Assembly (NCBI RefSeq): GCF_017351175.1
Contig: NZ_JAFMPN010000005.1
Coordinates: 1-64,000, forward strand
Length of the DNA stretch: 64,000 nucleotides
Direction of reading: 5' to 3'
DNA from: Desulfovibrio sp. Huiquan2017
Lineage (GTDB): Bacteria > Desulfobacterota > Desulfovibrionia > Desulfovibrionales > Desulfovibrionaceae
The notes beneath the pieces are model-generated. The model ran no database searches. It worked only from the letters and a program-made list of their open reading frames with translations, and was not told the origin of the DNA. A program made the position numbers and the translations under genes. Position 1 is the first letter of the stretch. Each line of letters begins with the position of its first letter. This document shows positions 39,487 through 62,289 of this stretch, piece after piece.

Positions 39487-40656
39487 CTACCAGTCCCTTT
39501 CTTTGCCCAACCCGTTCACGGGGATGTGTTTACCAAAGGTCCAGGACGCTGGCCGTTCGTATCTTGAAAGATGCGCCTTGGACCATTTTTGCAATTCCAA
39601 CTTTAGGACACCTATATCCTGGCCCGAACCGTAGGGCACGATAAACGCCTTGAGCCGCGTCCCCTCGTCAGATCGCATGAGACGTACCGCGCATTTTTCA
39701 ACCAAGGGATGGTCCAAAAGCACCTCCCGCACCCTGGCAGGATAGACGTTGACGCCCGCCACCTGCACAGCACAGTCCTTGCGTCGACGGGGAGTAAAAG
39801 TCGCAGGACCGTACCAATCAAGCAGATCCTGTAGAAGACACTCCGTCGCACCGCCACCTTCCGTTTTCCGGGCCAGAACAGCATCGTCGTCGGTCCGGGT
39901 CCAGTGGTCCAACAGTGTGTAGCACCCCAGATGGTCGGTGCGGTAGCCCACACCGCCGGTCTCCGATGATCCGTAAATCTCATACATCAAAGGCAATCCG
40001 TTCGCCTTGACCATTTCAATGGTCTTTGCTGGACACGGCCCGGTGGACGTGACGCCGTGCACATCTGCATGGAAATGCACGCCCATCTCGGCGAGCTTGC
40101 CCCACAAAAGAGGAAAGGCCACCATGAGGTCTCCATCTCGCAACGAACGGGCCAGCCCAGGCGTGGGCAACGGCACCACCCACCGGACCTCAAGGCCCAT
40201 GACACGCGGGAGTAGAATGGAAAAGAGAAAGCCGTAAATATGATGGCGTGGCACAAAACAGACAATCCGTTTCCTGTCTTGAAAAAGCAGGGCCAGATTC
40301 TCGACTTCCTGAACATGTTCGCCAAAATCATGTGTCGCAGGCTTGGGCTCATTGGTGCTTCCGGAGGTAAAAAATGTCATGCGGTCACCGGCAGCAAGCC
40401 ACTGCTGGTAAACACTTTCCGCCCACGCCTCCAGGGAAATCGCTCCGATGTTTGCCGGGGGCTTCGCATGAAACATGTGGGCGATGATATCGCCCACACC
40501 CTCCAGGTCGTCCACGGCATCGCACGTCGGAACAAACTCCGGACTGAGCGAACCGCCCGGCGCAAGGCGCATGCAGGCATCATAGGATAAATGAGCCAAA
40601 AGAACGCTGGAAATTATTTCACGGATATCTGCAAGTTGAAGATTGATGGCGCGCAT
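39487..40656 (-). CDS. AMP-dependent acyl/aryl ligase of APE-like cluster (ApeH-like)
   Basis: A 389-aa ANL-superfamily enzyme expected to activate a carboxylic starter with ATP and load it on CoA or an ACP. P-loop-like FFTSGSTNEPKP (residues about 95-106), YEIYGSSETGG (A5 motif), and a C-terminal region with VQVAGVNVYPARVREVLLDHPLVEKCAV. It is shorter than typical 500-aa ligases in the N-terminal part, as in ligases of aryl polyene clusters. It is the last gene of the leftward cluster. The substrate (perhaps a hydroxybenzoate-type aryl acid) is inferred from cluster type only. Confidence 0.8.
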   Translation of the reverse strand: MRAINLQLADIREIISSVLLAHLSYDACMRLAPGGSLSPEFVPTCDAVDDLEGVGDIIAHMFHAKPPANIGAISLEAWAESVYQQWLAAGDRMTFFTSGSTNEPKPATHDFGEHVQEVENLALLFQDRKRIVCFVPRHHIYGFLFSILLPRVMGLEVRWVVPLPTPGLARSLRDGDLMVAFPLLWGKLAEMGVHFHADVHGVTSTGPCPAKTIEMVKANGLPLMYEIYGSSETGGVGYRTDHLGCYTLLDHWTRTDDDAVLARKTEGGGATECLLQDLLDWYGPATFTPRRRKDCAVQVAGVNVYPARVREVLLDHPLVEKCAVRLMRSDEGTRLKAFIVPYGSGQDIGVLKLELQKWSKAHLSRYERPASWTFGKHIPVNGLGKERDW

Positions 40657-40661
40657 AAGAT

Positions 40662-41519
40662 CTATTCTCCGGTTACGCTGAACCAGACGTCACCCTCCCG
40701 ACAGGCGGTCTTCAGCTCTTGTTCCCTGGCGCCCAACGCCGCAGCGGCAAGCTCCAGGCCACAGGAAGTCGGACTCTTTCCCCAGAGATCCGTCAGGTCA
40801 CACGTGCCGAATTCTCCCTGGTCAATAACGACCGTATCGGCTTTGAAATTTTCCGGACGAGCCTCAATTTCCAGCGAGGCGAATCCCCCAGCCTCGGCCA
40901 AGAGGAAAAAGGCACTGCCCTCACCCACCGGCGGTGCATCCAAACGCCCCTCAGCGGCGTTCAAACGTTCGGTGTTGGCTTCAAGAAGCGGCGTAGTCTC
41001 GTCGGTAAAGCCCAAAAGGATGGTATCAACCCGACCTTCCGCCAACCAGAGTGCCGCTGTCTGGATTCCGGCCTGAACAGCTCCCCGCAACTGGCAGAGT
41101 GTTGTCTGCGGACAGGGGTAATCCAACAACATGGAAAGCACTCCCGCCGGGATGTTATGAACGGAAAGGGAAAAGGCGAGCGGTGAAGCCAACGCCGGCC
41201 CATCGTCAATGAGGGAGTCCTGAAAATCAAACGTCGTCCGGGACGGCCCGTAACCGGTACCGAGCACGATCCCCATACGGTCGGGAAGTACGGACAGTGT
41301 ATCGGCAGCCTCCAAAGCACGGTAAGCCGCCAGCAAAGTCATGCGGGTAAAATGGTCCATGCGCCGCAACTTGCGGGCCGGGACATACTCGGCCAGTGCC
41401 TCGGTCGGAGTCTCGTACGCCGCAGGCAGCGGCACGTCCTTGCCGTCCAAGGCTTGGCGGACCAACGCACCGTCGCCGATGGGAGCAGCCAGACCAACCC
41501 CGTGGATGGAGAGCTTCAT
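40662..41519 (-). CDS. Ketosynthase chain-length-factor-like protein (ApeC-like)
   Basis: A 285-aa protein resembling the N-terminal half of beta-ketoacyl synthases (LSIHGVGLAAPIGD; GIVLGTGYGPSRTTFDFQDSL; SPLAFSLSVHNIPAGVLSMLL). It lacks the active-site Cys: the aligned segment is TLCQLRGAVQAG, where C is not at the nucleophile position, and no HTGT or GH motif follows. Such stand-alone halves act as chain-length partners of a true KS. Its start overlaps the KS stop in ATGA, suggesting it pairs with that KS. Confidence 0.78.
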   Translation of the reverse strand: MKLSIHGVGLAAPIGDGALVRQALDGKDVPLPAAYETPTEALAEYVPARKLRRMDHFTRMTLLAAYRALEAADTLSVLPDRMGIVLGTGYGPSRTTFDFQDSLIDDGPALASPLAFSLSVHNIPAGVLSMLLDYPCPQTTLCQLRGAVQAGIQTAALWLAEGRVDTILLGFTDETTPLLEANTERLNAAEGRLDAPPVGEGSAFFLLAEAGGFASLEIEARPENFKADTVVIDQGEFGTCDLTDLWGKSPTSCGLELAAAALGAREQELKTACREGDVWFSVTGE

Positions 41520-42703
41520 CGCCGGTCCTCCTTCTCCAATATGAGGACGGAATTATTGCCGCCGAAAGCCAGTGACTGGCTCAAACCGAATCGCCCCGAG
41601 AAAGCGGTTGGACAGGCTACCGGAGAAAGGCCGATAGCCGGATCGGGTTCGCCAAACCCCTTGCTTGGCGGCAGCACTCCACGCTCCAGACAGGCCAGAG
41701 TGAAGGCAGCCTCCATGGCCCCGGCAGCCCCCAACGTATGCCCGGTGAACCCCTTTGTCGCAAAAACAAGAGATTGACTGAAACGATCGCGCAAGACGTG
41801 CCCCTCCACCAAATCGTTGGCCTTGGTGCCGGTTCCGTGCACGTTGACACAGGCCACATCCTCGCAGGTTATCCTGGCCTGCCCCAGGGCCGTATCCAGA
41901 GCCTGTAACAGCCCCCGAGCCTCGGGATGCGGAGCCGTCAGGTTGTAGGCATCACCGCAGGTTCCATAGCCCGCCACACGGCCTCTCCGGGGGGCTCCAA
42001 AGCGCTCTGCCACATTGGTAGAGGCGAGGAGCAACACACCTGCGCCCTCGCCCAAATTAAGCCCCCTACGGTCTTTATCGAACGGTCGGCAGGGTTCCGG
42101 GCTGGTATTCATGAGCCGGGCAAAACCGTTGTAGGAAATTTCGCTCAAGGCATCCGCACCTCCAGCGATGGCCACGTCGCACCAACCGGCACGAATCCAG
42201 GCTGCGGCGATGCCGATGGCGTCTGCACCGGAAGTACAGGCATTGGTCACAGTCTGGCAGGGACCGCTCAGATCGTAATGAACAGCTAGCCCCTCGGCCA
42301 GATTCCCAGCCAGGTAATGCAGGATGGGAGCCAGCTGCGGTTTCTTACCGGCTTTCCAGCTGCGATAAAAATCTAAGAAGTCGAGCGACGCGCCAACCGA
42401 GGTGCCGATGCACACCCCGACCCGAAGTTCGTTTTGCACGCTCAAGACGTCAGGCACCCCATCCAACGCATCATGAACGGCCATATGCAGTAAATTTGCG
42501 GAACGCCCTGCAGATATACTCGATGAATCTACCCACTTCTGGGGCACCTCGAAAACGGGATAGGTGACGGCCTGCTCACAGATAAAATGCGTAGGCGCAG
42601 CCGGCTCTCCCTTCCCGGCCAGCATGGTCTCCAGACAGGCATCAAGCGTGGGACCGGCCGCACAGATGCAACCCGCCCCCAGAATAGCCACCTCGCCAAG
42701 CAT
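41516..42703 (-). CDS. Beta-ketoacyl-ACP synthase 1 of APE-like cluster
   Basis: A 395-aa decarboxylating Claisen condensing enzyme of KAS I/II type. The complete triad is visible: Cys156 (VTNACTSGAD), His289 (NVHGTGTKAND), His322 (KGFTGHTLGAAG). The start ATG 42703 lies one base after the ACP stop; the longer open frame reads through the ACP gene and is rejected. It is the probable catalytic partner of the adjacent chain-length factor, elongating the polyene on the ACPs. Confidence 0.9.
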   Translation of the reverse strand: MLGEVAILGAGCICAAGPTLDACLETMLAGKGEPAAPTHFICEQAVTYPVFEVPQKWVDSSSISAGRSANLLHMAVHDALDGVPDVLSVQNELRVGVCIGTSVGASLDFLDFYRSWKAGKKPQLAPILHYLAGNLAEGLAVHYDLSGPCQTVTNACTSGADAIGIAAAWIRAGWCDVAIAGGADALSEISYNGFARLMNTSPEPCRPFDKDRRGLNLGEGAGVLLLASTNVAERFGAPRRGRVAGYGTCGDAYNLTAPHPEARGLLQALDTALGQARITCEDVACVNVHGTGTKANDLVEGHVLRDRFSQSLVFATKGFTGHTLGAAGAMEAAFTLACLERGVLPPSKGFGEPDPAIGLSPVACPTAFSGRFGLSQSLAFGGNNSVLILEKEDRR

Positions 42704-42704
42704 C

Positions 42705-42956
42705 TTATCCCTCGTTCTCGATAAACCGAGCCAGACTCTCCACCGACTGCAGGGCTTCCATTCCCTCCTCAGCGTTCTGAATCTCGGTATCGAAAAACTT
42801 CTGAACCAGCACCACGAGCTCCACCGCGTCCAGGGAATCCAACCCAAGTCCTTCGTCGCCAAACAGCGGTGCATCGTCCTCGATGGTGGCCGGGTCAATA
42901 TCCACAAGATCGAGTTCCCTTACCAAAACCGTCTTGATTTTTTCTCTGAGATCCAT
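42705..42956 (-). CDS. Acyl carrier protein 1 of APE-like cluster
   Basis: An 83-aa ACP with phosphopantetheine Ser41 in GLGLDSLDAVEL. Acidic four-helix pattern; N-terminal start MDLREKIKTVLV. GTG codons at 42965 and 42974 are alternatives. It sits between the LPLAT gene and the KS gene with 1-6 bp gaps. It carries the growing or starter acyl group. Confidence 0.9.
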   Translation of the reverse strand: MDLREKIKTVLVRELDLVDIDPATIEDDAPLFGDEGLGLDSLDAVELVVLVQKFFDTEIQNAEEGMEALQSVESLARFIENEG

Positions 42957-42961
42957 CCGAA

Positions 42962-43867
42962 TCACTCGTCCCACATGTTGAAGAAATTATAGAACTGCCA
43001 AGGATATGTTTCGACAAATTCCCCAAGTCCGTCCGCTAACATCTGGGCATACGGCCTGTATGCTTCCGGCTCCCGCCCCAGACGTTCGGGGAGGTCAATT
43101 ACCTTTGAAACCCATATTCGTCCACACCCGGAACCCGTACGGCAGGAAAAGGTCACCACCACGGGAACCTGGAGCGAAGAAGCCAGCTTGAATGCCCCTA
43201 TGGGCATCCGCACCGTGCCGCCGAGGAACTCCACACCGACCGTCCCCCGGTCACTGCCAAACGGCCTGTCACCCATGACGCAAAGCACGCCGCCCCGCTT
43301 GAGCACTTCAAGCATTTGCAGCGTTCCGCCCATGGGAGACGTCGGGTCAATGATATCGAACGACGGTCCTCCGGACTCTCCAAATTCGAAATAGTGCCGG
43401 TCCACATCCCGAACATCCCGGTACATGACAACCGCCTTGGGGGCATCGATATGGTCGAGAAAAGACATGCCTAACTGCCAGCAGCCCACATGCCCGGTCA
43501 CCAGCACCAATCCCCGCCCCATACCGGCGAGTTCCGTCATCCGCTCCCGGTCCTCGGCAGTGGCCGTCATTTCGAAATCCCCAGTGATGCCCATAACGGC
43601 TCGGTCCACCAGCATTTTGCCGAACTCCAACTGAAGCCGGAAACAATCCAGCAGGGATTGCACGAACGACCGCTTGCCGAACCGCCGCAGACGATAGTCA
43701 CGGGACCGCTTCCGAACATCGGGACGCAATGTGTAAAAGACCACGACAAAAAAAAGCATGGCATAGGCCAACGGCCGCCCTGCCAGCTGGATTGCATGGT
43801 AGAAAAGCCGGTGCGCAAACCCCGACGCCAGACTCGCACTGGACCATACCGATCTGCGAGCACTCAC
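42962..43867 (-). CDS. LpxL/HtrB-type lysophospholipid acyltransferase
   Basis: A 301-aa membrane-associated acyltransferase. An N-terminal hydrophobic helix (about 25-48) is followed by the catalytic region VLVTGHVGCWQLG with His126 (the HxxxxD/E-type site; here the acid position is Gln, as HVGCWQ) and CVMGDRPFGSDRGTVGVEFLG. It would acylate a lipid or glycolipid anchor. Its start overlaps the glycosyltransferase stop by 4 bp; in enterobacterial APE clusters I recall a single glycosyltransferase/acyltransferase polypeptide, so this pair could be the split form. Confidence 0.83.
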   Translation of the reverse strand: MSARRSVWSSASLASGFAHRLFYHAIQLAGRPLAYAMLFFVVVFYTLRPDVRKRSRDYRLRRFGKRSFVQSLLDCFRLQLEFGKMLVDRAVMGITGDFEMTATAEDRERMTELAGMGRGLVLVTGHVGCWQLGMSFLDHIDAPKAVVMYRDVRDVDRHYFEFGESGGPSFDIIDPTSPMGGTLQMLEVLKRGGVLCVMGDRPFGSDRGTVGVEFLGGTVRMPIGAFKLASSLQVPVVVTFSCRTGSGCGRIWVSKVIDLPERLGREPEAYRPYAQMLADGLGEFVETYPWQFYNFFNMWDE

Positions 43868-45033
43868 TGAAGGGACTCCTCCACCCGATCTCGGATGAGC
43901 CGGGAACGGACTATCCTGGCCAACCCGTAGACGACAACCCCGGTCAACAGACCAAAGGCCGGGCCAAGTACCAACGTGCCGAGGACGTATTCCCAGATAC
44001 GCTCCAGCGCCTCGTCACCAAGCGTCTGCATGGAGATGTCGGTCAAGAACTGTCCATGCCGAAGATAGTACCCGGCCTCCACGCACAACGCCGGGACAAA
44101 AGGAGGAATACAAAGCTGGCTCACGGCCAGCCCCATGATTTTGCTGAGCCGGAAATAGCCAAGGACAAAGACGATGGCGAGGCAATGCAGACCGATGAGG
44201 GGCAATGTGCCGAGCAGCATCCCCAGTCCTGCCGCCAGCGCAAGTTGCCATGGTGTTTCGTTCTTTTCGAGCAACAAGCGCAGAGATTTCATGGGGTGGA
44301 CAGGGCTGACCCGTCCGGTCTTGTCCTCGGTGTACCGACGGTGCGGAACAGGAAGGAAGGAACGTGCCGTCAACCGGGTATTGAGCAGGGATATCTCCAC
44401 ATTATCTCGCAGAGCGCGGAAATGGGAAATCCGCTCCCCCGACTTGGGATAATGGACGTGAATATCTACGTCCTTCAATGGATAGCCTGCCCAGGCCGAC
44501 CGGACCAGCACTTCCACCTCAAAGGCAAAACGGCGCTCATTCAAAGTGACGGCACCGAATATAGCCAAGGGATAAGCCCGGAACCCGCATTGGACATCGG
44601 AAAGACAGACCCCGGTCTGCACACGCAGCCAAAAATTGGAAAAACGCCGCCCGAACACCGATGCACCCGGAATATTTTCGCCGCTAAAATCACGGGCACC
44701 GACCACGACGGCCCGGGGATCTTCCTGTATCGCCGCCAGAAAAGCCGGGATGTCCGAAGGAAAGTGCTGCCCGTCGGCGTCCAGGGTGATGATATGCGTC
44801 TTGCCGAGACGACGTGCCTCTTCCGCCGCAGTCAGGATGGCCTGGCCTTTGCCTCGGTTCGTATCGTGCTGCACCAACCGGACCGGGAGCCCGACCAATG
44901 TCTCGATCCCGCCATCCGTGCTGCCGTCGTCCACCACCAGTACGTCGGGAAAGATATCAAGGACCTGCTCGACCACCTGACGCAACGTTTGGCCATGGTT
45001 ATAGACAGGTATGACGACAAGGATATCAATCAT
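43864..45033 (-). CDS. Family 2 glycosyltransferase fused to DUF2062
   Basis: 389 aa. The N-terminal GT2 domain (1-225) has DILVVIPVYNHG, VVDDGSTDGG, nucleotide-sugar site LDADGQHFPSD and a QCGFRAYPL acceptor segment. The C-terminal DUF2062 (about 255-385) has membrane helices (LALAAGLGMLLGTLPLIG, LAIVFVLGYFRLSKIMGLA). This suggests transfer of a sugar to a membrane lipid on the cytoplasmic face. The start ATG 45033 overlaps the radical-SAM stop in ATGA. The sugar and acceptor are unknown. Confidence 0.85.
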   Translation of the reverse strand: MIDILVVIPVYNHGQTLRQVVEQVLDIFPDVLVVDDGSTDGGIETLVGLPVRLVQHDTNRGKGQAILTAAEEARRLGKTHIITLDADGQHFPSDIPAFLAAIQEDPRAVVVGARDFSGENIPGASVFGRRFSNFWLRVQTGVCLSDVQCGFRAYPLAIFGAVTLNERRFAFEVEVLVRSAWAGYPLKDVDIHVHYPKSGERISHFRALRDNVEISLLNTRLTARSFLPVPHRRYTEDKTGRVSPVHPMKSLRLLLEKNETPWQLALAAGLGMLLGTLPLIGLHCLAIVFVLGYFRLSKIMGLAVSQLCIPPFVPALCVEAGYYLRHGQFLTDISMQTLGDEALERIWEYVLGTLVLGPAFGLLTGVVVYGLARIVRSRLIRDRVEESLQ

Positions 45034-46409
45034 GATGAAACCCCATAGAGAGGCGGCGCAGCCGATTCCTTGGGAAAGGAGATAAGGGTATCCCACAGCA
45101 GGCCGCGATAGCCAAACCGACGCAGAACGTTCATTCGCTCCTGCCCGTCCGAGGGAGGAAAGATACGGTCCCGACGTCCAGCAAAACCCTTTTTGAGCAT
45201 CTCATTGAGTTGGGCCGGGTCTACGAAGGGAGAAAAATAAAACTTTGGCTCAAGCAGTGTGTCGGCAGGGTCCACCAGCCTCTCTCGCCGGGCCTGGGCA
45301 TAGAGCGGTGTCCCTCGATATAGTCGAATGCCGGAAAAGGGAAAAACAACACAATGCTCCAGGGCATTGAGGTTGGCGATGCCCTGCCGGGCAGTCTCCA
45401 GCGTCTCTCCCGGCCCGCCGAAAATGACGAAGTGAGCGCAGGGAATGCGCGCCGCAACACAAGCAGCGTTAAACTCGCGAACATCCGCAAAGGAGAACGG
45501 CTTGTTCATCGCCTCCAACGTCTCGTCCGTGGCCGCGTCCGTCCCCACCTCCATGGCGTGCAGGCCGGAGCGTTTAAGCAGGTCCAGTGTCGTCGCATCC
45601 ACAGAAGTAGGCTGAAAAAAGCCACTCCACTTGATGGGTAACTGCTTCCGAACCAAGGCTTCGGCCAACTCAAGGTAGTAGCCGTGCGAGTCGTTGAACA
45701 CGGAGTCGGTGAAGAAAACAGAATCCACACCGTTTCGCAGGTACAGCGTTTCTATCTCATCCACCACATCAGCAACGGCTCGCGGCCGCAACCACCCGCC
45801 CTCGATGGACGGATAGGAGCAATACGCGCAACGGTTCTCACACCCCCGTTTGGTCTGCACGCTGGCGATGCAGCTCTGCTTCATGTAAAAATCCAGAATG
45901 GCTTCATCGCGAACAGGAGTAATCATTTCCTTCGATCCAAGGCCCTTTTCCGGCTTCATGACCCGAGGCGGCACATCCCCGGCTTCCAACATATGCACCA
46001 GCCGCCGCATCTTTTGTTCCCCCTCGCCCACGACACCGAAATCCGCTCCCAGGTAATCGAGAATAATCTCCGGCATAAGGGAGAATCCGGAGCCTCCGAC
46101 GACCACGGTATATCCATCCTGCTTCAAGAAATGGGCGACTTCCCGGACATGGCTCAGATACCAGTTTTCAGCAAAAGAAAGAGAATCCACGTTGTCGATA
46201 TTGCGCAGGGAAATACCGGTCAAATCCGGCTGAAACTCGGTCAAGACCGCAGCCAGTGGTTCAAGTTCCTTTCCCGCAGCCAAAAAATCGAACTGACGCA
46301 CGGTATGTCCATCCCGCTCCAGCGCCGCCGCTATCACAGACATGCCAAGCGGATAGACCGGGTAGGGTTCCGTGGTTGTATTGGTTGATATGAGCAGCAC
46401 CCGGGCCAT
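45030..46409 (-). CDS. B12-binding radical SAM protein
   Basis: 459 aa. An N-terminal cobalamin-binding-like domain (ARVLLISTNTTTEPYPVYPLG, VVVGGSGFSLMPEIILDYLGADFGVVGEGE) precedes the radical SAM core with Cys190, Cys194 and Cys197 (RGCENRCAYCSYPS), a GGPGETLET glycine stretch, and a C-terminal extension. Relatives add methyl groups or rearrange unactivated carbons. It overlaps its neighbours by 1 and 4 bp, hence is an integral part of the cluster. Since no SAM methyltransferase of the usual type is present in the cluster, it might replace one; that is inference. Confidence 0.82.
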   Translation of the reverse strand: MARVLLISTNTTTEPYPVYPLGMSVIAAALERDGHTVRQFDFLAAGKELEPLAAVLTEFQPDLTGISLRNIDNVDSLSFAENWYLSHVREVAHFLKQDGYTVVVGGSGFSLMPEIILDYLGADFGVVGEGEQKMRRLVHMLEAGDVPPRVMKPEKGLGSKEMITPVRDEAILDFYMKQSCIASVQTKRGCENRCAYCSYPSIEGGWLRPRAVADVVDEIETLYLRNGVDSVFFTDSVFNDSHGYYLELAEALVRKQLPIKWSGFFQPTSVDATTLDLLKRSGLHAMEVGTDAATDETLEAMNKPFSFADVREFNAACVAARIPCAHFVIFGGPGETLETARQGIANLNALEHCVVFPFSGIRLYRGTPLYAQARRERLVDPADTLLEPKFYFSPFVDPAQLNEMLKKGFAGRRDRIFPPSDGQERMNVLRRFGYRGLLWDTLISFPKESAAPPLYGVSS

Positions 46410-46870
46410 CAGAGTTGTCCGCCCGACCATTGTGCCAGAAATGCCGTGTAGAAATCAGGCGGCGTCAGCATCAGTTCACGCTCGGCATCCACAAAAAGTT
46501 GCACGGTATACCCGGTCGTGGTTACTTCCCCGGCCGCATTGCGGATGATGAACTCATAATTGAGTCGTGCCGCTTCGTTATAGTGCAGTAGGGTTTCGAT
46601 TCGTACGGTATCGCCAAAGGCGAGTGGCAGAATATAGTCCACATGCATCTGTTTGACCGGGGCGGTCACCCTGTGCGCGTGGAAGTCCAGGTAACCGATG
46701 CCGTAACGATGACCGTGGCTGACCCGACCGTCCTCAAAATAACTGGGATAGCGACCATGCCAGACAATGCCGAGGGGATCTACCTCCTCGAAACGAACCC
46801 GGCGTTCCACCTCGTCACGCAATGGAGCCGGGGCGTCCTTAACGGCCTTGAAATACGCATTTCTGCTCAT
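46409..46870 (-). CDS. Hotdog thioesterase (4-hydroxybenzoyl-CoA type, ApeK-like)
   Basis: A 153-aa hotdog-fold protein with the YbgC/4HBT active-site block RFEEVDPLGIVWHGRYPSYFEDGR (Asp31, His38), preceded by VERRV and followed by MHVDYILPLAFGD and AARLNYEFIIRN. It probably releases or proofreads acyl chains on ACP/CoA in polyene assembly. It sits between the dehydratase and radical SAM genes with overlaps at both ends. Confidence 0.85.
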   Translation of the reverse strand: MSRNAYFKAVKDAPAPLRDEVERRVRFEEVDPLGIVWHGRYPSYFEDGRVSHGHRYGIGYLDFHAHRVTAPVKQMHVDYILPLAFGDTVRIETLLHYNEAARLNYEFIIRNAAGEVTTTGYTVQLFVDAERELMLTPPDFYTAFLAQWSGGQL

Positions 46871-50877: not shown

Positions 50878-51314
50878 CTCGCCGCCGGGGGTATCCAGAG
50901 TTTGATGTTGCCGGTTGCGACCACGTCGCCACCCTGCGAAATCCGGCCTTCCACCACATAAAACCCTTCGAATTCACCAACGGTCTCGACATCGACGACT
51001 AGTTTCTCTCCGCCACGGGCACGGCCCTGAACGACAAACCGCTGGACACCCACCAGATAGCCCCCCGGGATAGGCAGACCTGCTGCCGCCAGCTCCCATC
51101 CTCGAATGGCAGCATAGGTCTGGGCCAGCAACTCCACGAACACGAGCGGAGAAATCGTACCTCCCTCACCTGCGGCGGGCCCATCACCGGGAAGTGTCGT
51201 CTCGACACGCCCGGCCCCCTGCTCCGAGGCGACAAGAATGTCCACAAGCAGCATGGCACCCCGATGGGGGATAAGTGTTGCGGCGGGTACAGGTAGATGC
51301 ATCATGGATTCCAT
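50874..51314 (-). CDS. ApeP/FabA-like dehydratase
   Basis: A 146-aa hotdog protein with TLIPHRGAMLLVDILV near the N-terminus (His17) and GGYLVGVQRFVVQGRARGG; this fits the 3-hydroxylacyl-ACP dehydratases of APE clusters (ApeP). Three in-frame ATGs (51314, 51305, 51302) lack a clear ribosome site, so the start is uncertain. It is the first gene of the second half of the cluster, 120 bp after the lipoprotein gene with a hairpin in between, so it may depend on read-through or its own promoter. Confidence 0.72.
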   Translation of the reverse strand: MESMMHLPVPAATLIPHRGAMLLVDILVASEQGAGRVETTLPGDGPAAGEGGTISPLVFVELLAQTYAAIRGWELAAAGLPIPGGYLVGVQRFVVQGRARGGEKLVVDVETVGEFEGFYVVEGRISQGGDVVATGNIKLWIPPAAR

Positions 51315-51401
51315 AATTAAAAGGAGGCGCACCGTGTGGGATCGAGGCCCCCTCGTGTTGGCGCAGAGATGATGTAGGAAGCTATCGCAGGATGGACCGA
51401 A

Positions 51402-51429
51402 GGCCTGCGGAGAAGATTCTCCGCAGGCC
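51402..51429 (-). terminator. hairpin inside the APE-like cluster
   Basis: A perfect 13-bp stem GGCCTGCGGAGAA / TTCTCCGCAGGCC with almost no loop follows the small lipoprotein gene. There is no T-run, so it may attenuate rather than end transcription, lowering expression of the downstream genes. Confidence 0.55.
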
Positions 51430-51437
51430 GATAAACA

Positions 51438-51839
51438 CTATTGCATGACCGCCAAGTTATTGTTGATGGCCTGGCTGAGATTCTGGATCCATCCGTTGTA
51501 GTTACTATGGATTTTAGTCCCGTTGTATTTGAGATTGATGCTGCTTTTGTAATTGATGCTGTAGTCTTGCTGGTCATAAGTGATATCGACAACAGCCTGG
51601 TGCGCTCGGATATTCAGAGTCGCCTCGATAAGACCGGGTTTGATCACACGCATGTTCCAGCCGAGCCCTGTACCGGCTTTAACAATGGCATTTTGTACCT
51701 GTTGCATTGTCATGGGACCTTGTGCGGCCTGCGGGATGGCTGCGTCATTGATATTGTAGATTGGGGCGGTGCGGCAGGAGACCAACAGCAGGACTGCCGC
51801 CAGTGCACAGAAAATTAAAATCAAACGGGTACGTTTCAT
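51438..51839 (-). CDS. Small lipoprotein of APE-like cluster
   Basis: 133 aa, ATG 51839 with AAGGAG upstream. Lipoprotein signal (MKRTRLILIFCALAAVLLLVSC, Cys22) precedes a beta-rich domain (GWNMRVIKPGLIEATLNIRAHQAVVDITYDQQDYSINYKSSINLKYNGTKIHSNYNGWIQNL region). Similar small lipoproteins occur singly in Gram-negatives; function unknown. It overlaps nothing but lies 25 bp after the acyltransferase stop. Confidence 0.75.
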   Translation of the reverse strand: MKRTRLILIFCALAAVLLLVSCRTAPIYNINDAAIPQAAQGPMTMQQVQNAIVKAGTGLGWNMRVIKPGLIEATLNIRAHQAVVDITYDQQDYSINYKSSINLKYNGTKIHSNYNGWIQNLSQAINNNLAVMQ

Positions 51840-51864
51840 CACCTTAGCTCCTTGTAAAAACTGT

Positions 51865-52623
51865 CTATGTTTCCATGGCAACAAGCGCTTGGGACATCAA
51901 AGCCTTGACGTCTTTCTTCATCTCAAGATGTCCGCAAGCCGTTTGCCTGTAGTTATCGGGATACACCGGCGGAAGCAAGCGCACTATTACTTTTGCTGGC
52001 TGTATGAGCATGTTTCCCTTGGGAAGTAAGGCATGCGTGCCGGAAAAGCATAGAGGAACCACAGGGACGCCGGTTTCCACAGCTATACGAAAGGCACCGG
52101 AGTGAAAACGATGCAATTTCCCATCCGCCGATCGGGTTCCTTCAGGGAAAAACAAGAGTGAAGCACCGCTTTCCAGTGTGTCCTTCGACTGTTGAAGAAC
52201 ATCCTCCAGTGCGCGCCCTTCCGTCCGAATATACCCGGCAGCCCGCATGAACGGCGCATACCATGGAATACGAAACGGCCAGTTGCGAACCGCAAAACAG
52301 ATATTCCACTCCGGCTGCGCCCCCATGAAGAACATATCGAAAAACGAAGCATGGTTGGCTACCAGCACACAGGGCGTCGGTGGTGCAGCAGACTCCATGC
52401 ATACCGACACAACACCCCCTATCAGGCGCACCCATACTCGACCGTACAGCCAGATTATTTTTCTTGCGGTTTGATGCAGCGGCATCCCCCGCCCCAGGCG
52501 GAAAAGGCACCACCAAATCGGTAGAAGCAAAACACAAAGTACTGTCCACAGGAGTGTCAGTCCGTAGACTCCTGCATTGACCTTGATGTCAGCAAAAAAA
52601 CGACCGATCTTACTCTCAGACAT
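51865..52623 (-). CDS. PlsC-type 1-acyl-glycerol-3-phosphate acyltransferase family (ApeD-like)
   Basis: A 252-aa membrane acyltransferase with two N-terminal hydrophobic stretches (about 18-40, 60-75), the HxxxxD site NHASFFD (His91, Asp96), GYIRTEGRA and FPEGTRS (159-165), then VPVVPLCFSGTHALLPKG. It probably attaches the polyene or a fatty acid to a glycerol/sugar lipid. Its ATG overlaps the stop of the preceding gene by 1 base. Confidence 0.87.
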   Translation of the reverse strand: MSESKIGRFFADIKVNAGVYGLTLLWTVLCVLLLPIWWCLFRLGRGMPLHQTARKIIWLYGRVWVRLIGGVVSVCMESAAPPTPCVLVANHASFFDMFFMGAQPEWNICFAVRNWPFRIPWYAPFMRAAGYIRTEGRALEDVLQQSKDTLESGASLLFFPEGTRSADGKLHRFHSGAFRIAVETGVPVVPLCFSGTHALLPKGNMLIQPAKVIVRLLPPVYPDNYRQTACGHLEMKKDVKALMSQALVAMET

Positions 52624-53087
52624 TACTCTTTTTTATTCGAGGAAGGCGATGGGTAACGATCGATTTTTGCAAAAAGCATATCCATCAAATTATAAATGCG
52701 CTTCTCACCCTTTTCGAATTTATGGGCATCCCATTGTCCTACCCGCAACTTGACACGACCAACCATTTCCTTGTTGTGAAAAGCGTTGATTTCAGCATCA
52801 GAGAGAAACAGGGCGAGATCCCAGGACCACAAGCCGTAGTAAGTCAACGTCCATTCCGCATCCCCTACATGCGAGCCCGCCGGAAGGACCCGATAAGCAA
52901 TTCCTTCCTTGTCGAGCCAATGCTCCATGGCGACAATGAACCCCTCACGGGTCTCCGTATTCTTAATGATACAGATTTTTTTGGCCTGGCTGATCCCTTC
53001 TGCGGGGTCATTGATAACGTCGAATTTACCACAGCCTGCCATTGCCAGAAGAATGAAAAGAAAAAGGAGAAGGCCGCATTTACGCAT
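52623..53087 (-). CDS. Lipoprotein, Sbal_3080-like
   Basis: A 154-aa lipoprotein (MRKCGLLLFLFILLAMAGC, Cys19). Mature part with KKICIIKNTETREGFIVAMEHWL, YRVLPAGSHVG and WTLTYYGLWSWDLALFLSDAEI resembles what I recall of the Sbal_3080 lipoprotein family (conserved W-W-D-L-A-L stretch). The start is ATG 53087 behind a G-run. Role in the cluster unknown; it could be an outer-membrane anchor for export. Confidence 0.68.
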   Translation of the reverse strand: MRKCGLLLFLFILLAMAGCGKFDVINDPAEGISQAKKICIIKNTETREGFIVAMEHWLDKEGIAYRVLPAGSHVGDAEWTLTYYGLWSWDLALFLSDAEINAFHNKEMVGRVKLRVGQWDAHKFEKGEKRIYNLMDMLFAKIDRYPSPSSNKKE

Positions 53088-53107
53088 GGATAGTCCCCCC
53101 AATGGGT

Positions 53108-53365
53108 TTAGTCGGTCAAAGTTTTTTTCTTTTCCAAAACAAAGGCATGGAGATCTCCCAGAGTCCGGATGGATTGAAACGCCTCGTCCTTTTTGATCTT
53201 GAAGTGGAACGCCTGCTCCAGGACCACAACCATATCGACGGCATCCAGGCTGTCAAGATCCAAATCGTCCTTGAACTTGGCCTCGGGGCTCATCGCAGCC
53301 GGGTCAAGTTCGAATTCCTCGACGAGCAGTTCGTCGATGCGTGCTGTAACTTCCTCGTCAGTCAT
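53108..53365 (-). CDS. Acyl carrier protein 2 of APE-like cluster
   Basis: An 85-aa ACP with phosphopantetheine Ser39 (DLDLDSLDAVDM). ATG 53365 is preceded by GGAG. It differs from ACP 1 around helix II/III (VVVLEQAFHFKIKKDEAF), so the two may serve different KS partners. It begins within the end of the KS gene (8-bp overlap). Confidence 0.9.
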   Translation of the reverse strand: MTDEEVTARIDELLVEEFELDPAAMSPEAKFKDDLDLDSLDAVDMVVVLEQAFHFKIKKDEAFQSIRTLGDLHAFVLEKKKTLTD

Positions 53366-54584
53366 CATATCTCCGCAAAACAATTGAAGTATTAATACCA
53401 CCCAGCGCAAAGCTGTTCTTCAGGGCTGTGGTTATCGGCCATTTTTCAGTTTCAAGGACGTGCGACAGTCCGACACAGTCCGGCGCAATGTCTATCAAGT
53501 TTCTTGTAGGGAACACAAGTCCATTATTCATCATTGAAATAGTAGCAATTGTTTCAACACCACCGCTGGCAGCCATCGTGTGCCCAAGGTGTCCCTTGAG
53601 GCTGCTCACCTTAGGTCCAGCTCCAAGCAGCGAAGCGATTGCCGCACTCTCGGCAGCATCGCCAAGCCGGGTACCCGTGGCGTGGGCATTGACGTAGTCC
53701 ACTTCGGCCGGAGACACCCCCGCATCGTCCAAGGCTCGCGACATGCACCTGGCTATGGCCTCATCGCTGGGGCTGGCCAGGTTTGACGGATCCGAAGTAG
53801 AGGCAAATCCCAATATCTCAGCAAGGATAGTCGCATTGCGAGCCAAGGCATGATCCAGAGACTCCAGAACCAGCAAACCGGCCCCCTCCGCACAGACAAT
53901 GCCGTCGCGATCCCGATCAAAGGGGCGCGGCGTCTGCTCCGGCACCTCATTGTACCCAGTAGAAGCGGCCTCGATAACGTCAAAGGTGCCGACGGTCAGC
54001 GGATGGAGTTCGTCCGCCCCGCCGCACAGCATGACCTCCTGCCGACCTATGGCCACAGCCTCCGCCGCAAGGCCGATGGACTGGCAACCGGTGGAGCAAG
54101 CTGCCGAGGGCGCGACAACCCGCCCCGTAATTCCGAAGAACTGGGCCAGATTGGTGGCGCAGCTATGATTCATTATCTTGAAAAATTCCGTCGCCTTGGT
54201 GCCTTCAATGCTCAGGCCGTCCAGATAGCGGGCGAAAAAGGCCTGCATGGCCTGAACACTGCCCACAGTAGAACCCAGGCACAGTCCGGTCCCGGCATCG
54301 GTCAACATCGCTTCGTCAAGCCCTGCCATGGCAACGGCTTCCCGGGCGGCCAGCGCGGCATAGATGGACATCGGCGACATGGAACGCCGAAATTTTCTGG
54401 GAATGGATTTTTCGTCGCAGTCCGGCACGGTCCCGGCAATGGTCGGAACCAACCCCGAAATCTCGCGTAGTGCCGCCATAGGACGGACACCACTCTCTCC
54501 GGCCGCAAGCCCGCGCATCAAGGATTCCACTCCTGTGCCAAAGGGAGATACGGCTCCCATTCCCGTTATGACGACTCGTCTCAT
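53358..54584 (-). CDS. Beta-ketoacyl-ACP synthase 2 of APE-like cluster
   Basis: A 408-aa KAS I/II-type enzyme with complete active site: Cys163 (APSAACSTGCQS), His301 (NAHATGTRLGD), His335 (KGHLGHTMAASG). It starts at MRRVVITGMGAVSPFG, overlapping the stop of the FAD gene by 4 bp. It is likely the ApeR- or ApeO-type elongating KS; which is not decided by eye. Confidence 0.9.
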   Translation of the reverse strand: MRRVVITGMGAVSPFGTGVESLMRGLAAGESGVRPMAALREISGLVPTIAGTVPDCDEKSIPRKFRRSMSPMSIYAALAAREAVAMAGLDEAMLTDAGTGLCLGSTVGSVQAMQAFFARYLDGLSIEGTKATEFFKIMNHSCATNLAQFFGITGRVVAPSAACSTGCQSIGLAAEAVAIGRQEVMLCGGADELHPLTVGTFDVIEAASTGYNEVPEQTPRPFDRDRDGIVCAEGAGLLVLESLDHALARNATILAEILGFASTSDPSNLASPSDEAIARCMSRALDDAGVSPAEVDYVNAHATGTRLGDAAESAAIASLLGAGPKVSSLKGHLGHTMAASGGVETIATISMMNNGLVFPTRNLIDIAPDCVGLSHVLETEKWPITTALKNSFALGGINTSIVLRRYDD

Positions 54585-56068
54585 GCGTATTGCCTCAGTT
54601 CGGAGTGAAGAGATTCATGGCCCAGAATGATCCCGCAGGTCAGATAGGCGGAAATGACTGCCCCCAGAATGCCGGGTGCAACGATTCCTTGCCCGGCCAG
54701 GGTAAGCCCCTCCACCTTGGTTACCGGAGCAGGATTAAACTGATTGATGGAATGGCAGAGCCCATACAGGCTGCCCGAAGGCGCGGCGCAAAAGTCTCGG
54801 AACGTCAGCGGCGTAGCCCCCTGGACAAAACGTACGGTCTCCGAAAGTTCCGGCATCCTACGAAAGACCTCCCGCTCGAAAGAGTGCAGCAGTTCGGCTT
54901 TACGCTGCCGGTAGTCCTCGGGCCGGGACGCAGGAAGGGAATCCGCCCACGGGGCAAATGGGGAAAAAGCCTGAGAGACAATCGCGGTCACCCCCATCTT
55001 CCCCGATCCCGGATCCTCGGAAGCAGAAAGGAAAATCATGCTTTCCTGAACCGGCAACCCCCCTTTCAGGTCATCCGACAGCGAGCGCCCTGGCCAAAGT
55101 ATGACATTCTGCCCGTCAAGACTGGGGATGAGCGCTTCACTGACGCCGAAAAGCATGAGTGCTGAAGCGGTGTCCTCCAGCAGAGCCAGCCGTTTTTTGA
55201 AAGCTGGACGAAAGGCCGCGTCTGGCGTTGCTTCAATCAAACCGCGAGGGTGAGCGGTCCACAGGCAGGACGGCGCGGCGAACTCCCGCCCATCGTCCAG
55301 AACGACGCCTGTCACCCGGCGTTCCGCATCAATCTCCACGGAACGGACACTGTGACCGAGAAAAACGTCGACCCCAGCCTCGGCCAGTCGCGTTTCAAAT
55401 GCACGCACTAGAGCATGACCGCCCCCTTCCACACCGTGAGTTGAAAGCAAGTAGGACCCGGCGACCAGGGCATGAGTCGAAAAAAGCGCGTCCTCGGGCG
55501 GAACGCCATAGAGCAGGGTATGAAAGCTCAGGACCGCCTTGAGTTCCTCGTTGTCCGTCAGCTCGTCGAGAAATGTCCGCAGTGTCGTAGTTTCACCATG
55601 CAGCGTTCCATTCAAATCAAAGGGACGCGTAAAATTGAGAAAAGGAGAAGCAGCAATGTTCCGGTCGACAGCATCAAGATAGCGCTCGATAGCAACCGTT
55701 TCGGCAGGAAAACAACGGGTCAGATACGCCTTGCAGGCCTCGAATCCTGACGGGACAGCATAGCTGCGCCCGGAAGGCTCCGCCACAAAGCGGTCAAAAC
55801 CCTCAAGTCTGTACGGCTTCTTCCCAATAAGCGGCGCAATGCCGAGGTGCTTGAAATACACGTCCAACGGGTGCCCGTCTCCCAACCCGCCCACGTAATG
55901 CAACCCTGTGTCGAACTGGACACCTCCCCGACGGAAGCCCCGCACCGTTGGCGAAAGGCGGGGAAACGCCTCTACCAAGGCAATCCGGGCACCGCTCTGG
56001 GCCAGCAGCAAGGCTGCCGTCATACCGGATATGCCACCGCCGACAACGATGTGATCGAACCGAGGCAT
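54581..56068 (-). CDS. CrtI/phytoene-desaturase-like FAD oxidoreductase
   Basis: A 495-aa flavoprotein with GGGISGMTAALLLAQSG at residues 10-26, a RALVDA-like helix region, HGVEGGGHALVRAFETRLAEAG (a phytoene-desaturase-type HGxxGGxxxLxxA segment), and a C-terminal GLTLAGQGIVAPGILGAVISAYLTCG. It may desaturate the acyl chain or oxidise the aryl head. The ATG overlaps the next KS stop by one base; an in-frame ATG 21 nt earlier is in that KS. The acceptor substrate is unknown. Confidence 0.82.
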   Translation of the reverse strand: MPRFDHIVVGGGISGMTAALLLAQSGARIALVEAFPRLSPTVRGFRRGGVQFDTGLHYVGGLGDGHPLDVYFKHLGIAPLIGKKPYRLEGFDRFVAEPSGRSYAVPSGFEACKAYLTRCFPAETVAIERYLDAVDRNIAASPFLNFTRPFDLNGTLHGETTTLRTFLDELTDNEELKAVLSFHTLLYGVPPEDALFSTHALVAGSYLLSTHGVEGGGHALVRAFETRLAEAGVDVFLGHSVRSVEIDAERRVTGVVLDDGREFAAPSCLWTAHPRGLIEATPDAAFRPAFKKRLALLEDTASALMLFGVSEALIPSLDGQNVILWPGRSLSDDLKGGLPVQESMIFLSASEDPGSGKMGVTAIVSQAFSPFAPWADSLPASRPEDYRQRKAELLHSFEREVFRRMPELSETVRFVQGATPLTFRDFCAAPSGSLYGLCHSINQFNPAPVTKVEGLTLAGQGIVAPGILGAVISAYLTCGIILGHESLHSELRQYA

Positions 56069-57282
56069 CAGAACCTCAGAACGAGGCAAGAGTTGGTACC
56101 GCCGAACCCGGCAGAATTACACAGCACGTTCCGGGGCGTTGTTTCCCGAACGTCCAGGATGACATCAAGTCCTTCCGCCTCGGGCATGAGCGTGTCCAGG
56201 TTGATGTTCGGGGCAAGAAATCCGTCCCGCGCCATGAGCGTGCAGTAGACGACCTGGCTGGCACCCGACATCCACAACTCATGGCCAGTCATGGATTTGG
56301 TAGAAGAAATGGCCGGAGTGCACTCCGCAAACAAAGCGCGGAGATTGGCGACCTCGGCGCGATCCCCCGTCGGCGTCGCCGTGGCATGCGCACAAACGTA
56401 GTCGATCTCTCCGGGAACAAGCCCCGCACCCTGTAACGCCATGCGGCCCGCCCGACAAAGCCCCGTATCGCTGGGGACGGAAAGATGCTCACCGTCCGAG
56501 GAAAAACCGTAGCCTGCCACCCGTCCTAAGATTTTCGCACCGCGAGCCTCTGCCAGATCACGCCGCTCCAGCACAATTGCGGCAGCACCGCCGCTGGGGA
56601 CCAGTCCATCCCTATCCTGCGAAAACGGTCGGCTGCCCTTTGCAGGGTTGCCTGGATCCGCAGCAAAGGAGCCTAGCCCGTCGAAACTGCACATGGATTG
56701 CCAATTAATTTCCTGCGCACCGCCGCAGATGACGCGTTCCTGCAACCCGGCGGCAATCAGGGCAACGCCCTGCCCCACGGCATTTCCGCCGCTGGAACAG
56801 GCGGAACTCAAGGTCCAGGCCGCCCCTTTGGTTCCCAGCAGGGAATTGAGATTCATGGTGACATTGGAAGTCATGGAACGGAAGATGACTCCACTGCCGA
56901 GCAGTCCGGTGTCCCCTCGCTCTCGCAACAATGCTTCCTGCTCAAGGGCGGCCAGGCAACTCGAATCACAGCCGAAGACAATCCCGGTCTGGTCATTGGC
57001 CCAGTCGTCGGGGTGCAAGCCGGACATTTCCAGAGCATCCATAGTCGCAGCATGGGCATGAATGGCGTGCAGGGTCATGGTCTTGCGCTGCTTGCGCGAA
57101 AGTCGTGCGGCTGGATCAAAATCCCTAATCTGCCCCGTCAGCGGACTGGCAAATCCCAGTTCGGTACGAAGAGGATCCGCAACAATGCCGGAACGGCCGG
57201 AATGCAAGGCCTCCGCAACCGAGTCCACGGAATGGCCCAAGACGGAAACAATTCCGATCCCTGTGATAACGACTTCAAACAT
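56068..57282 (-). CDS. Beta-ketoacyl-ACP synthase 3 of APE-like cluster
   Basis: A 404-aa KAS I/II-type enzyme with Cys162 (LSSACSSGGNAVG), His299 (CAHATATPTGD) and His334 (KSMTGHELWMSGA) visible. It starts at MFEVVITGIGIVSVLG; the open frame runs 11 codons further upstream without a ribosome site. It is more divergent than KS1 and KS2 around the motifs, as expected for a specialised APE KS. It lies 13 bp after the reductase stop. Confidence 0.9.
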   Translation of the reverse strand: MFEVVITGIGIVSVLGHSVDSVAEALHSGRSGIVADPLRTELGFASPLTGQIRDFDPAARLSRKQRKTMTLHAIHAHAATMDALEMSGLHPDDWANDQTGIVFGCDSSCLAALEQEALLRERGDTGLLGSGVIFRSMTSNVTMNLNSLLGTKGAAWTLSSACSSGGNAVGQGVALIAAGLQERVICGGAQEINWQSMCSFDGLGSFAADPGNPAKGSRPFSQDRDGLVPSGGAAAIVLERRDLAEARGAKILGRVAGYGFSSDGEHLSVPSDTGLCRAGRMALQGAGLVPGEIDYVCAHATATPTGDRAEVANLRALFAECTPAISSTKSMTGHELWMSGASQVVYCTLMARDGFLAPNINLDTLMPEAEGLDVILDVRETTPRNVLCNSAGFGGTNSCLVLRF

Positions 57283-57295
57283 ATATAAAATGAAG

Positions 57296-58012
57296 TTAGG
57301 TGTAGATACCACCATTGACGGAAAGGACCTGCCCCGTGACGTACGTAGCTTGGGGCGAACACAAAAAGGTCACGACATCGGCCACTTCGTCCGGCCTACC
57401 CATCCGTCCCAACGGGATTCGACCAACGATTTCCTCTTTGGGCAGGCCATCGAGCATGGCGGTGTCAATGAAGCCGGGAGCGACGGCATTGACGAGAATA
57501 TTTCGTTTGGCGACTTCCATGGCAAGCGATCTGGTCGCACCGATGAGTCCGGCCTTCGCCGCTGAGTAGTTCGTCTGGCCGGGAACGCCCGTCTCGCCTG
57601 AGGTAGAGGCAATATTGACGATGCGCCCCTGACGCTTGCGCAACATCTTCGTAACCACAGCCTGGGTCACGTAAAAAAAACCATTCAGGTGCACCCGCAA
57701 CACATCTTCCCAAGCCGCAGGACTCATGAGCATCATCAGCCCGTCTTTAGCGAATCCGGCATTGTTGACTAGTGCAAAGGGGACTTCCCGCTCCAGCATC
57801 GGAGCAAGAATATTTTCTACGGCCTCATGGGCAGTTACATCAAACTGTAGCAAGGTGCATTGACGCCCCAACCCCACTATCTGTTCTGCGACTTTTTGGG
57901 CTGCCGAAGTATCGCTTCGGTAGTTCAACCAAATATCAAAACCAGCTTCGGCAAGCTTCACGGCAGTAGCTGCGCCGATCCCCTTACTTGCGCCGGTAAC
58001 AAAAGCTATCAT
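57296..58012 (-). CDS. 3-oxoacyl-ACP reductase FabG-like (ApeQ-like)
   Basis: A 238-aa short-chain dehydrogenase. NADP-binding TGASKGIG (residues 6-13), NNAG (83-86), catalytic Ser136, Tyr149 and Lys153 (NYSAAKAG), C-terminal [12 protein letters not shown]. It reduces the beta-keto group after each condensation. It is the first gene of the leftward APE-like cluster, directly behind the promoter. Confidence 0.92.
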
Positions 58013-62243: not shown

Positions 62244-62289
62244 GTTTAGTTATGTAGGCGACAAGGTCAATCAAAAAGGAAATTCTAAG

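Follow-up and report, generated by a model that had tools for sequence, protein, structure and literature searches.

What does a sulfate-reducing bacterium make with the enzymes of a pigment pathway, and what does a B12-binding radical S-adenosylmethionine (SAM) enzyme do in their midst? The question is raised by a 64,000-nucleotide stretch of Desulfovibrio sp. Huiquan2017 (contig NZ_JAFMPN010000005.1, positions 1 to 64,000; hereafter the window), where a single compact run of 21 genes, all on the - strand, occupies positions 39487-58012. An initial annotation had read this run as an aryl-polyene (APE)-type cluster with unusual enzyme content, and all the enzyme classes that it named are present, one of them (the DUF3261-like protein) weakly; the "sulfate reducer" of that annotation is consistent with a dsrA gene in the genome (623.6 bits). 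Judged by sequence kinship, the cluster is a variant of the APE/flexirubin family in a sulfate reducer, and its optional B12 enzyme ties it to ladderane-like clusters. Going beyond the first reading, the same kind of evidence assigns the B12 enzyme to a named family (TIGR04072, "ladder"), marks its gene as a dispensable cassette and places the cluster on a probable genomic island.

Kinship with aryl-polyene and flexirubin-type clusters

Fifteen of the 18 genes of the APE cluster of Escherichia coli CFT073 (apeA-R; gene names follow PMC8253772) have a reciprocal best hit (RBH) in the window, among them the counterparts of ApeA, ApeH, ApeO, ApeR, ApeI and ApeP, with identities of 24-45% in the matched pairs; the APE logic seen by the initial annotation is thus upheld. 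The E. coli genes that find no such partner are the methyltransferase (ApeB), ApeG and the DUF3261 protein, and the glycosyltransferase (GT) and LpxL-type acyltransferase of the window represent the two halves of E. coli ApeJ. Additional to the E. coli set are a ketosynthase (KSb), a CrtI-like enzyme (CRT), the B12 radical-SAM enzyme and one lipoprotein. The best E. coli match of KSb is ApeR, and this match is not reciprocal.

Through KSb we located two plasmid-borne Bacteroidota clusters, in Persicobacter psychrovividus (pPP6) and Aureispira anguillae (pAUEa), which we call flexirubin-type by their gene set alone and which carry an ammonia-lyase, a polysaccharide deacetylase and a second ketosynthase. 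Significant RBHs were obtained in Persicobacter for 13 of the 21 window proteins, KSb and CRT included, and in Aureispira for 11 of the 21 (one further reciprocal pair in each, at E=0.40 and E=0.37, was left uncounted); identities to these clusters reach 48% for KSb and its counterpart KS1, 48-50% for the ketoreductase (KR) and 33-36% for the GT with its DUF2062 domain. The CrtI-like enzyme has its counterpart in a Persicobacter FAD oxidoreductase (E=6e-65), and none among the Aureispira proteins of the stretch compared. Because both the extra ketosynthase and the CrtI-like enzyme match a flexirubin-type Bacteroidota cluster, by homology neither is foreign to the cluster family, and we reject the idea that the latter does not belong to such clusters. 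It thereby ceases to be an oddity, as does the lack of an ammonia-lyase, since none is annotated in the E. coli reference cluster either. The gene that both the E. coli APE and the flexirubin-type clusters lack is, as far as gene content goes, the B12 radical-SAM gene.

Unlike the clusters of Persicobacter and Aureispira, the window has ApeR-, ApeA- and ApeH-like genes together with the B12 enzyme, and it is without their ammonia-lyase, deacetylase and second ketosynthase. In Persicobacter the LolA protein scores above the LolA2_flexi cut-off, and a FlxJ-like methyltransferase reaches 524.3 bits, just under its cut-off of 560. The reported absence of a SAM methyltransferase and of an ammonia-lyase holds in the window cluster, where profile scans assigned no open reading frame (ORF) to either and where neither the methyltransferase queries from E. 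coli and Persicobacter nor the ammonia-lyase of Persicobacter found a match. General scans likewise assigned no cluster ORF to a dialkylresorcinol (Dar) enzyme, no Dar-specific search having been made.

Ketosynthases and chain-length factor

The three active ketosynthases and the chain-length factor (CLF) of the initial annotation are borne out at the level of residues. The Cys-His-His triad is intact in KSb (56068-57282), KSf (53358-54584; RBH with ApeR, 40%) and KSo (41516-42703; RBH with ApeO, 34%), and the ApeC-like CLF (40662-41519; PF13723) has an Arg at the Cys position, the same as E. coli ApeC. In a tree of 39 ketosynthases KSf groups with ApeR (support 100/99), KSb, whose RBH is Persicobacter KS1, with flexirubin-type KS1 (100/99), and the second ketosynthase of the extended clusters described below with flexirubin-type KS2 (100/98), FabF being separate from the cluster ketosynthases; in an earlier tree, built before the flexirubin rows were included, KSb adjoined FabB. 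A search of the genome with the PF00109 profile returned five places, four of them within the cluster and the fifth a FabF-like gene on a different contig. A grouping with fatty-acid, polyunsaturated fatty-acid or ladderane ketosynthases, which had been named as the outcome that would count against an APE cluster, was for the most part not what we found. The same clades do contain ketosynthases of the ladderane-like clusters of the phylum, and this means that the APE and ladderane readings are not mutually exclusive.

The B12 radical-SAM gene as an optional cassette

To see how the B12 gene is distributed we turned to the 288 genomes of the family, of which 25 have a TIGR04072 gene at E<=1e-60 and 66 have KSf at E<=1e-85; the B12 gene is present in 24 of those 66 and not in the other 42. 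In the genus, KSf occurs in 9 of 36 genomes and is accompanied by the B12 gene in 6 of the 9. Twenty of the 42 loci without the B12 gene were read, and two of these (L185 and L187; G and L numbers are our labels for genomes and loci) were dropped as short contig ends, giving 18 non-carriers. Our 19 carriers are the window, 17 of 20 fetched family loci and G241 from another family; the three family loci excluded were G424 (extended type), G530 (ApeH-like ligase but a second B12 gene) and G593 (differently organised), and the family carriers G578, G581, G584 and G526 lie outside the set fetched.

The thioesterase and the GT are 1366-1605 bp apart in all 19 compact carriers, as against 3-289 bp in 17 of the 18 non-carriers (15 of these at 40 bp or less), the eighteenth being G468, where the GT-to-ligase part is not visible. 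The B12 gene is absent in all 20 loci read, and the gene order is otherwise as in the carriers but for details: KSb is missing from G572 and G562, KR is inverted in G498 and G468, and in G522 and G527 the ligase comes ahead of the CLF. Because counts of KSb by similarity search include cross-hits to other ketosynthases, we used gene maps instead, which show KSb as a gene of its own in 16 of 19 carriers (it is missing in G621 and G538, where the sequence ends, and genuinely absent in G241) and in 16 of the 18 non-carriers. Neither the FlxJ-like methyltransferase nor the ammonia-lyase of Persicobacter, used as queries, found a match in any of the 19 carriers (window included) or the 18 non-carriers.

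A tree of 53 clusters, based on five concatenated core proteins (G593, G263, G220, G378, L006 as a duplicate of G619, and genomes without the full set of five core genes being left aside), has the ingroup non-carriers in six places, with eight changes of B12-gene state when outgroups are included, a count that comes from a quick method on a tree with long branches. In the tree of the B12 enzyme itself the compact carriers form one clade among the extended ones (20 rows, one a duplicate; 86/99), G530 standing outside it on a long branch; the enzyme is identical in L006, a Pseudodesulfovibrio metagenome-assembled genome, and in G619, a member of the genus of the window genome, which places L006 in that genus too. 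Judging from these gene orders the TIGR04072 gene is a dispensable, optional cassette. The trees suggest inheritance with repeated loss of the gene as the best fit, and transfer of the B12 gene on its own may also have contributed.

A SPASM radical-SAM gene behaves as a second optional cassette, found in 8 of 19 carriers and 7 of 18 non-carriers and lacking in the window. It lies mostly between the ApeA-like gene and the first dehydratase gene, or after KSo in G522 and G527; examples are L006 (4.1 kb), L112-L115, L182-L184, L189 and L190, among others.

Family and likely chemistry of the B12 enzyme

The B12 radical-SAM enzyme (45030-46406) is a full member of TIGR04072 (rSAM_ladder_B12), scoring 666.8 bits against a cut-off of 360. 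The family is named for ladderane-type lipids, and neither its name nor its description was met in the literature searched. Other families score far lower (BzaD 171.9 bits, tryptophan 2-C-methyltransferase 126.4, PhpK 90.7), the BchE and AprD4 families being weakly similar as well, and the closest solved relative is the aromatic C-methylase TsrM (PDB 6wte; E=1e-30, both domains aligned). The three cluster cysteines of the CxxxCxxC motif are kept in 52 of 52 aligned relatives. On the alignment with TsrM, from which its residue numbers are counted, Arg69 below the cobalt corresponds to Arg68 of the B12 enzyme, an Arg kept in 51 of the 52 (Lys in G209); the roles of Arg69 and of Glu273, which blocks the cluster iron, are those described in PMC8992657 and PMC13331322.

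By this resemblance the enzyme probably C-methylates, in a step like that of ApeB. Methylation is our first choice because the head group of the E. coli aryl polyene is thought to be methylated by ApeB (PMC8253772) and because ApeB and FlxJ genes are absent here. The stricter proposal that the B12 enzyme simply replaces the methyltransferase is unsupported, the clusters without it having no methyltransferase either.

Proposed product and pathway

The sequence itself shows to which families the proteins belong, how the genes are ordered, that the active sites are intact, that the B12 enzyme is optional, where the island ends and that a transfer was recent; from the gene set we infer a product, a starter, an order of steps and a methylation. 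We think it rather probable that the product is a conjugated polyene acid of the APE/flexirubin type, made anaerobically, that this acid is moved to the outer membrane as an acylated and probably glycosylated lipid, and that tailoring by the B12 enzyme is optional; our reasons are the RBHs to the E. coli and Persicobacter clusters, the ketosynthase tree, and the ketosynthase triads with their CLF. The gene order is KR, KSb, CrtI-like flavoprotein, KSf, a first acyl carrier protein (ACP1), an Sbal_3080-family lipoprotein, a PlsC-type acyltransferase, an ApeA-like lipoprotein, a first dehydratase (DH1), LolA, an MMPL pump, a 213-aa lipoprotein, a second dehydratase (DH2), the thioesterase, the B12 radical-SAM enzyme, a GT2-DUF2062 glycosyltransferase, an LpxL-type acyltransferase, ACP2, KSo, CLF and an AMP ligase.

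In the proposed pathway a starter acid would be loaded on an ACP by the AMP-forming ligase (39487-40656), which resembles ApeH and 4-coumarate-CoA ligase (RBH with ApeH, 28%; TIGR02372 256.9 bits, below the cut-off of 334.7). Both carrier proteins match PF00550, ACP1 (53108-53368; NF003757 70.9 bits, cut-off 65) and ACP2 (42705-42956) each being the RBH of a different ACP of the E. coli cluster. KSo-CLF, with KSf and KSb, would extend the chain by malonyl units, each of which would then be reduced by KR and dehydrated by DH1 and DH2. KR (57296-58012) is an ApeQ/FlxB-like 3-ketoacyl-ACP reductase (RBH with ApeQ, 44%; NCBIfam FlxB 300.7 bits, below the cut-off of 340). DH1 (50874-51314) is ApeP-like (RBH, 27%; no Pfam match, and a weak PDB match to 6qsr chain B at E=0.008), and DH2 (46867-47253; PF07977) is ApeI-like (RBH with ApeI; PF22818 20.2 bits, below the cut-off of 28.5). 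No cluster ORF resembles a dedicated enoyl reductase, the broad SDR family PF13561 being matched by KR only, so the double bonds should stay conjugated. The CrtI/CrtD-like FAD oxidoreductase (54581-56068; PF01593; TIGR02733 101.5 bits, far below the cut-off of 549.7; 28% over 507 aa to its Persicobacter RBH) may act on the polyene by oxidation or isomerisation, and the ApeK-like 4HBT thioesterase (46409-46870; PF13279; RBH with E. coli) would release it.

Attachment to a lipid would fall to the two acyltransferases and the GT2. The PlsC-type acyltransferase (51865-52623; PF01553) is ApeD-like and the RBH of the E. coli lysophospholipid acyltransferase; the GT2 (43864-45030; PF00535, PF09835), which corresponds to the N-terminal part of ApeJ, has RBHs in the E. 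coli and flexirubin-type clusters; and the LpxL-type acyltransferase (42962-43867; PF03279), corresponding to the C-terminal part, is 24% identical to E. coli ApeJ over 309 aa (E=8e-11), a match that is not reciprocal, the best match of ApeJ being the GT. Of the "polyene glycolipid" suggested earlier, the glycolipid part is plausible and comes down to this one GT2 gene. Export would involve the LolA-like carrier (50248-50877; PF03548; LolA2_flexi 98.7 bits, below the cut-off of 125), the ApeM-like MMPL/RND exporter (47888-50251; PF03176; RBHs with the E. coli and flexirubin-type counterparts) and the lipoproteins. Among these the ApeA-like one (51438-51839) is the RBH, at 40% over 127 aa, of the E. 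coli protein at the ApeA place. The 213-aa LolB-like protein (47250-47891) matches only LolB, at E=0.083 and thus below the cut-off, and has no RBH with the E. coli DUF3261 protein; lying between the exporter and DH2, it is perhaps a counterpart of ApeN/DUF3261, and the claim of a DUF3261-like protein is accordingly weak. The B12 enzyme would add an optional tailoring step.

The Sbal_3080-family lipoprotein (52623-53087; NF040519 104.9 bits, cut-off 80) occurs in 2 of the 19 carrier clusters, those of the window and G620, and is not in the G631 cluster, which elsewhere is 92-99% identical. The 10 flanking ORFs scanned gave zero Pfam matches.

Several observations weigh against this picture. 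The clade of KSb and flexirubin KS1 is sister to FabB (99/96), and the grouping of KSo with ApeO and flexirubin KS3 is weaker (87/83), the ApeO row being a long branch. Searches of the genome for PF00221 (aromatic ammonia-lyase) and PF04345 (chorismate lyase), which gave matches in 5 of 14 and 1 of 14 control genomes, respectively, returned nothing; no known source of an aryl acid was thus found there, and the starter may not be aromatic. Where TsrM has Glu273, Val or Ile stands in 52 of the 52 aligned relatives, so the B12 enzyme is not a non-radical methylase of the TsrM type and could carry out another radical reaction. Finally, an ApeB/FlxJ methyltransferase is found in 0 of the 18 relatives without the B12 enzyme, so the latter would be no one-for-one methyltransferase swap.

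The residue at the Glu273 position bears on the methylation step. With Val or Ile there the cluster iron is left free for SAM and radical SAM cleavage should be possible, and the enzyme weakly resembles the families of BchE and AprD4; it might thus be no methylase at all and instead use radical chemistry akin to that of OxsB, BchE or AprD4 to form a ring on the polyene or to dehydrate it. We regard this as a serious if less likely alternative, and one to the methylation step only, because the best of the other families are BzaD, tryptophan 2-C-methyltransferase and PhpK, the latter two being methylases, and because TsrM is the best PDB match, although the AprD4-like 6fd2 also matches (E=1e-9).

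The starter is the next point of doubt. A polyene lipid built on an aliphatic or short acyl starter, and hence neither an aryl polyene nor a flexirubin, would agree with the missing ammonia-lyase and chorismate lyase matches and with a ligase that stays under the 4-coumarate-CoA ligase cut-off at 28% identity to ApeH. Against it, that same ligase is the RBH of ApeH and is accompanied by counterparts of ApeA, ApeR and ApeO, so that we hold a non-aryl product to be improbable and, from gene kinship, an aryl starter to be likely.

Extended, ladderane-like clusters of the phylum

Among 395 sampled genomes of the phylum, TIGR04072 scores above its cut-off in 84, and at 480 bits or more in 24, one of which is the window; for the other 23 we examined the gene neighbourhood in all but G002. 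A second B12 radical-SAM gene is found directly upstream of the TIGR04072 gene in 20 of these 22, the remaining two being G241, of the compact type, and G209, with only the TIGR04072 gene on its piece. On long contigs (e.g. G285, G307, G380, G324 and G252) these extended clusters have the order of the window (KR-KSb-CRT-KSf-ACP-PlsC-DH-LolA-MMPL-DH-thioesterase, then radical-SAM genes, then GT-LpxL-ACP-KSo-CLF) and the same TIGR04072 family, supplemented upstream by a second ketosynthase and a 194-aa gene and downstream by an HpnJ-like radical-SAM gene; in G195 and G240 the extended-cluster genes are arranged in a different order. The window cluster is a compact version that keeps ApeA- and ApeH-like genes and is without the second ketosynthase, the 194-aa gene, the two further B12 radical-SAM genes and the PagL-like and FlxY-like genes. 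That the second, non-canonical ketosynthase is absent agrees with the count of ketosynthase-family genes, four in the cluster and one elsewhere. The second B12 enzyme (B12b) found no match in the window genome, in a search run without a positive control of its own, the same protein scoring above 500 bits in extended clusters.

Distant TIGR04072 members, at about 410-440 bits, occur in differently organised clusters (G263, G242, G378, G220 and G090; L053-L055, L064 and L067), where they adjoin a SPASM gene and also a FlxY-like ligase, the FlxY match being weaker in G378.

Could the window cluster then belong to a ladderane-type or other anaerobic polyunsaturated-lipid pathway, like that proposed for Kuenenia stuttgartiensis and Desulfotalea psychrophila, with a fatty acyl chain into which double bonds are introduced, or on which rings are closed, by the B12 radical-SAM and CrtI-like enzymes? 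TIGR04072 takes its name from ladderane-type clusters, a TIGR04072 enzyme alongside fatty-acid-synthase-like genes, the mark of that type, is what the window has, and the extended clusters amount to this gene order with further radical-SAM genes. Rattray et al. (2009; PMC2649909) describe fatty-acid-synthase clusters of Kuenenia stuttgartiensis and Desulfotalea psychrophila with radical-SAM, phytoene-dehydrogenase-like, glycosyltransferase and membrane-protein genes, and report C31:8 and C31:9 hydrocarbons in D. psychrophila; we liken the extended clusters to these from the text of that paper, not from sequence. The same paper, however, records no detectable ladderanes in D. psychrophila. In addition, the compact cluster lacks the extra ketosynthase and the two other B12 radical-SAM genes and keeps its ApeA- and ApeH-like genes, the B12 gene is missing in several lineages where the remainder of the cluster stays, and the ketosynthases group with those of APE and flexirubin clusters. 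We therefore consider a ladderane-type product distinctly unlikely. A plain fatty-acid synthase is disfavoured by the ketosynthase tree, despite the sister position of FabB to the KSb clade, and by the presence of a separate FabF gene outside the cluster; chance or misannotation we reject in view of near-identical gene orders in dozens of genomes.

A probable island and its recent exchange

The APE/flexirubin-family cluster looks, from its surroundings, like part of an integrated island of about 51-52 kb that runs from window position 36222 to about 88203 of the contig (C5). Taken in 2-kb steps, GC content ranges over 0.54-0.67 up to 36 kb and over 0.51-0.59 beyond that point. The left end is a tRNA-Pro(CGG) gene (36222-36298, + strand), copies of whose 3' part recur on C5 at 87206-87272 (67 bp, 94%) and 88155-88203 (49 bp, 98%); a tyrosine integrase gene (C5 85835-87028) ends just before the first copy, and a DnaB-like helicase gene and a transposase-type gene lie inside. 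An Rfam scan of 34000-64000 returned tRNA only. The site may be an integration hotspot, for partial copies also accompany the same tRNA in G613, at distances of about 3 and 5 kb, and in G631, at about 49 kb. The island further holds a tandem pair of a 34-base AT-rich repeat (62094-62161), upstream of an ORF (62242-63579) with a weak replication-initiator (RPA) match below the cut-off.

In the congener G631, segments 36.9-52.5 and 53.0-58.3 kb of the window are 93.7 and 95.4% identical in DNA and are located near 1.43-1.46 Mb, while the tRNA-bearing flank of the window lies at 1.63 Mb (84%). At four-fold degenerate sites 13 cluster genes together are 0.916 identical and three flank genes 0.679; since these sites are far more identical in the cluster than in the flank, the cluster is, by this measure, recently exchanged. 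The values are lower for the LpxL-type acyltransferase (0.70), the GT (0.81) and the ligase (0.83), and parts of the cluster may therefore have recombined. A plasmid origin found no backing: nothing among plasmids matches the cluster closely, and the relatives of the B12 enzyme in 66 plasmid records are all less than 60% identical, the 20 listed at most 27.6%. A scan of genome contigs gave only two loci.

Implications for sulfate reducers and for ladderane biosynthesis

In E. coli, aryl-polyene pigments have ties with the cell envelope and with biofilm (PMC8253772), and a comparison of carrier with non-carrier strains would bear on whether anaerobic sulfate reducers make pigments of this kind. 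The B12 enzyme family here sits alone, as an optional gene in nearly equal clusters of one sulfate-reducer family, some of them in the same genus. With relatives from which precisely this gene is missing, a test of how the enzyme acts on a lipid is already at hand.

Ladderane biosynthesis is an open problem in which TIGR04072 is among the enzyme families thought to matter. The B12 radical-SAM gene of the Kuenenia cluster, Kuste2803, was proposed as a candidate for cyclisation at a time (2009) when anammox bacteria offered neither pure cultures nor genetics (PMC2649909); later expression work was done in E. coli (PMC4790861), and ladderane-annotated clusters are reported from Desulfobacterota and other phyla, with their function unknown outside anammox bacteria (PMC9902471). 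From the family name and these papers, Kuste2803 would belong to TIGR04072. We offer as a tentative idea, and one that may well prove wrong, that TIGR04072 enzymes are O2-independent B12 radical C-methylases, or have some other single tailoring activity, on polyene lipids, and that the "ladderane-like" clusters are an offshoot of the APE/flexirubin family. If so, Kuste2803 would be a tailoring enzyme, and the origin of ladderanes would lie in a conjugated-polyene pathway, not in desaturated fatty acids.

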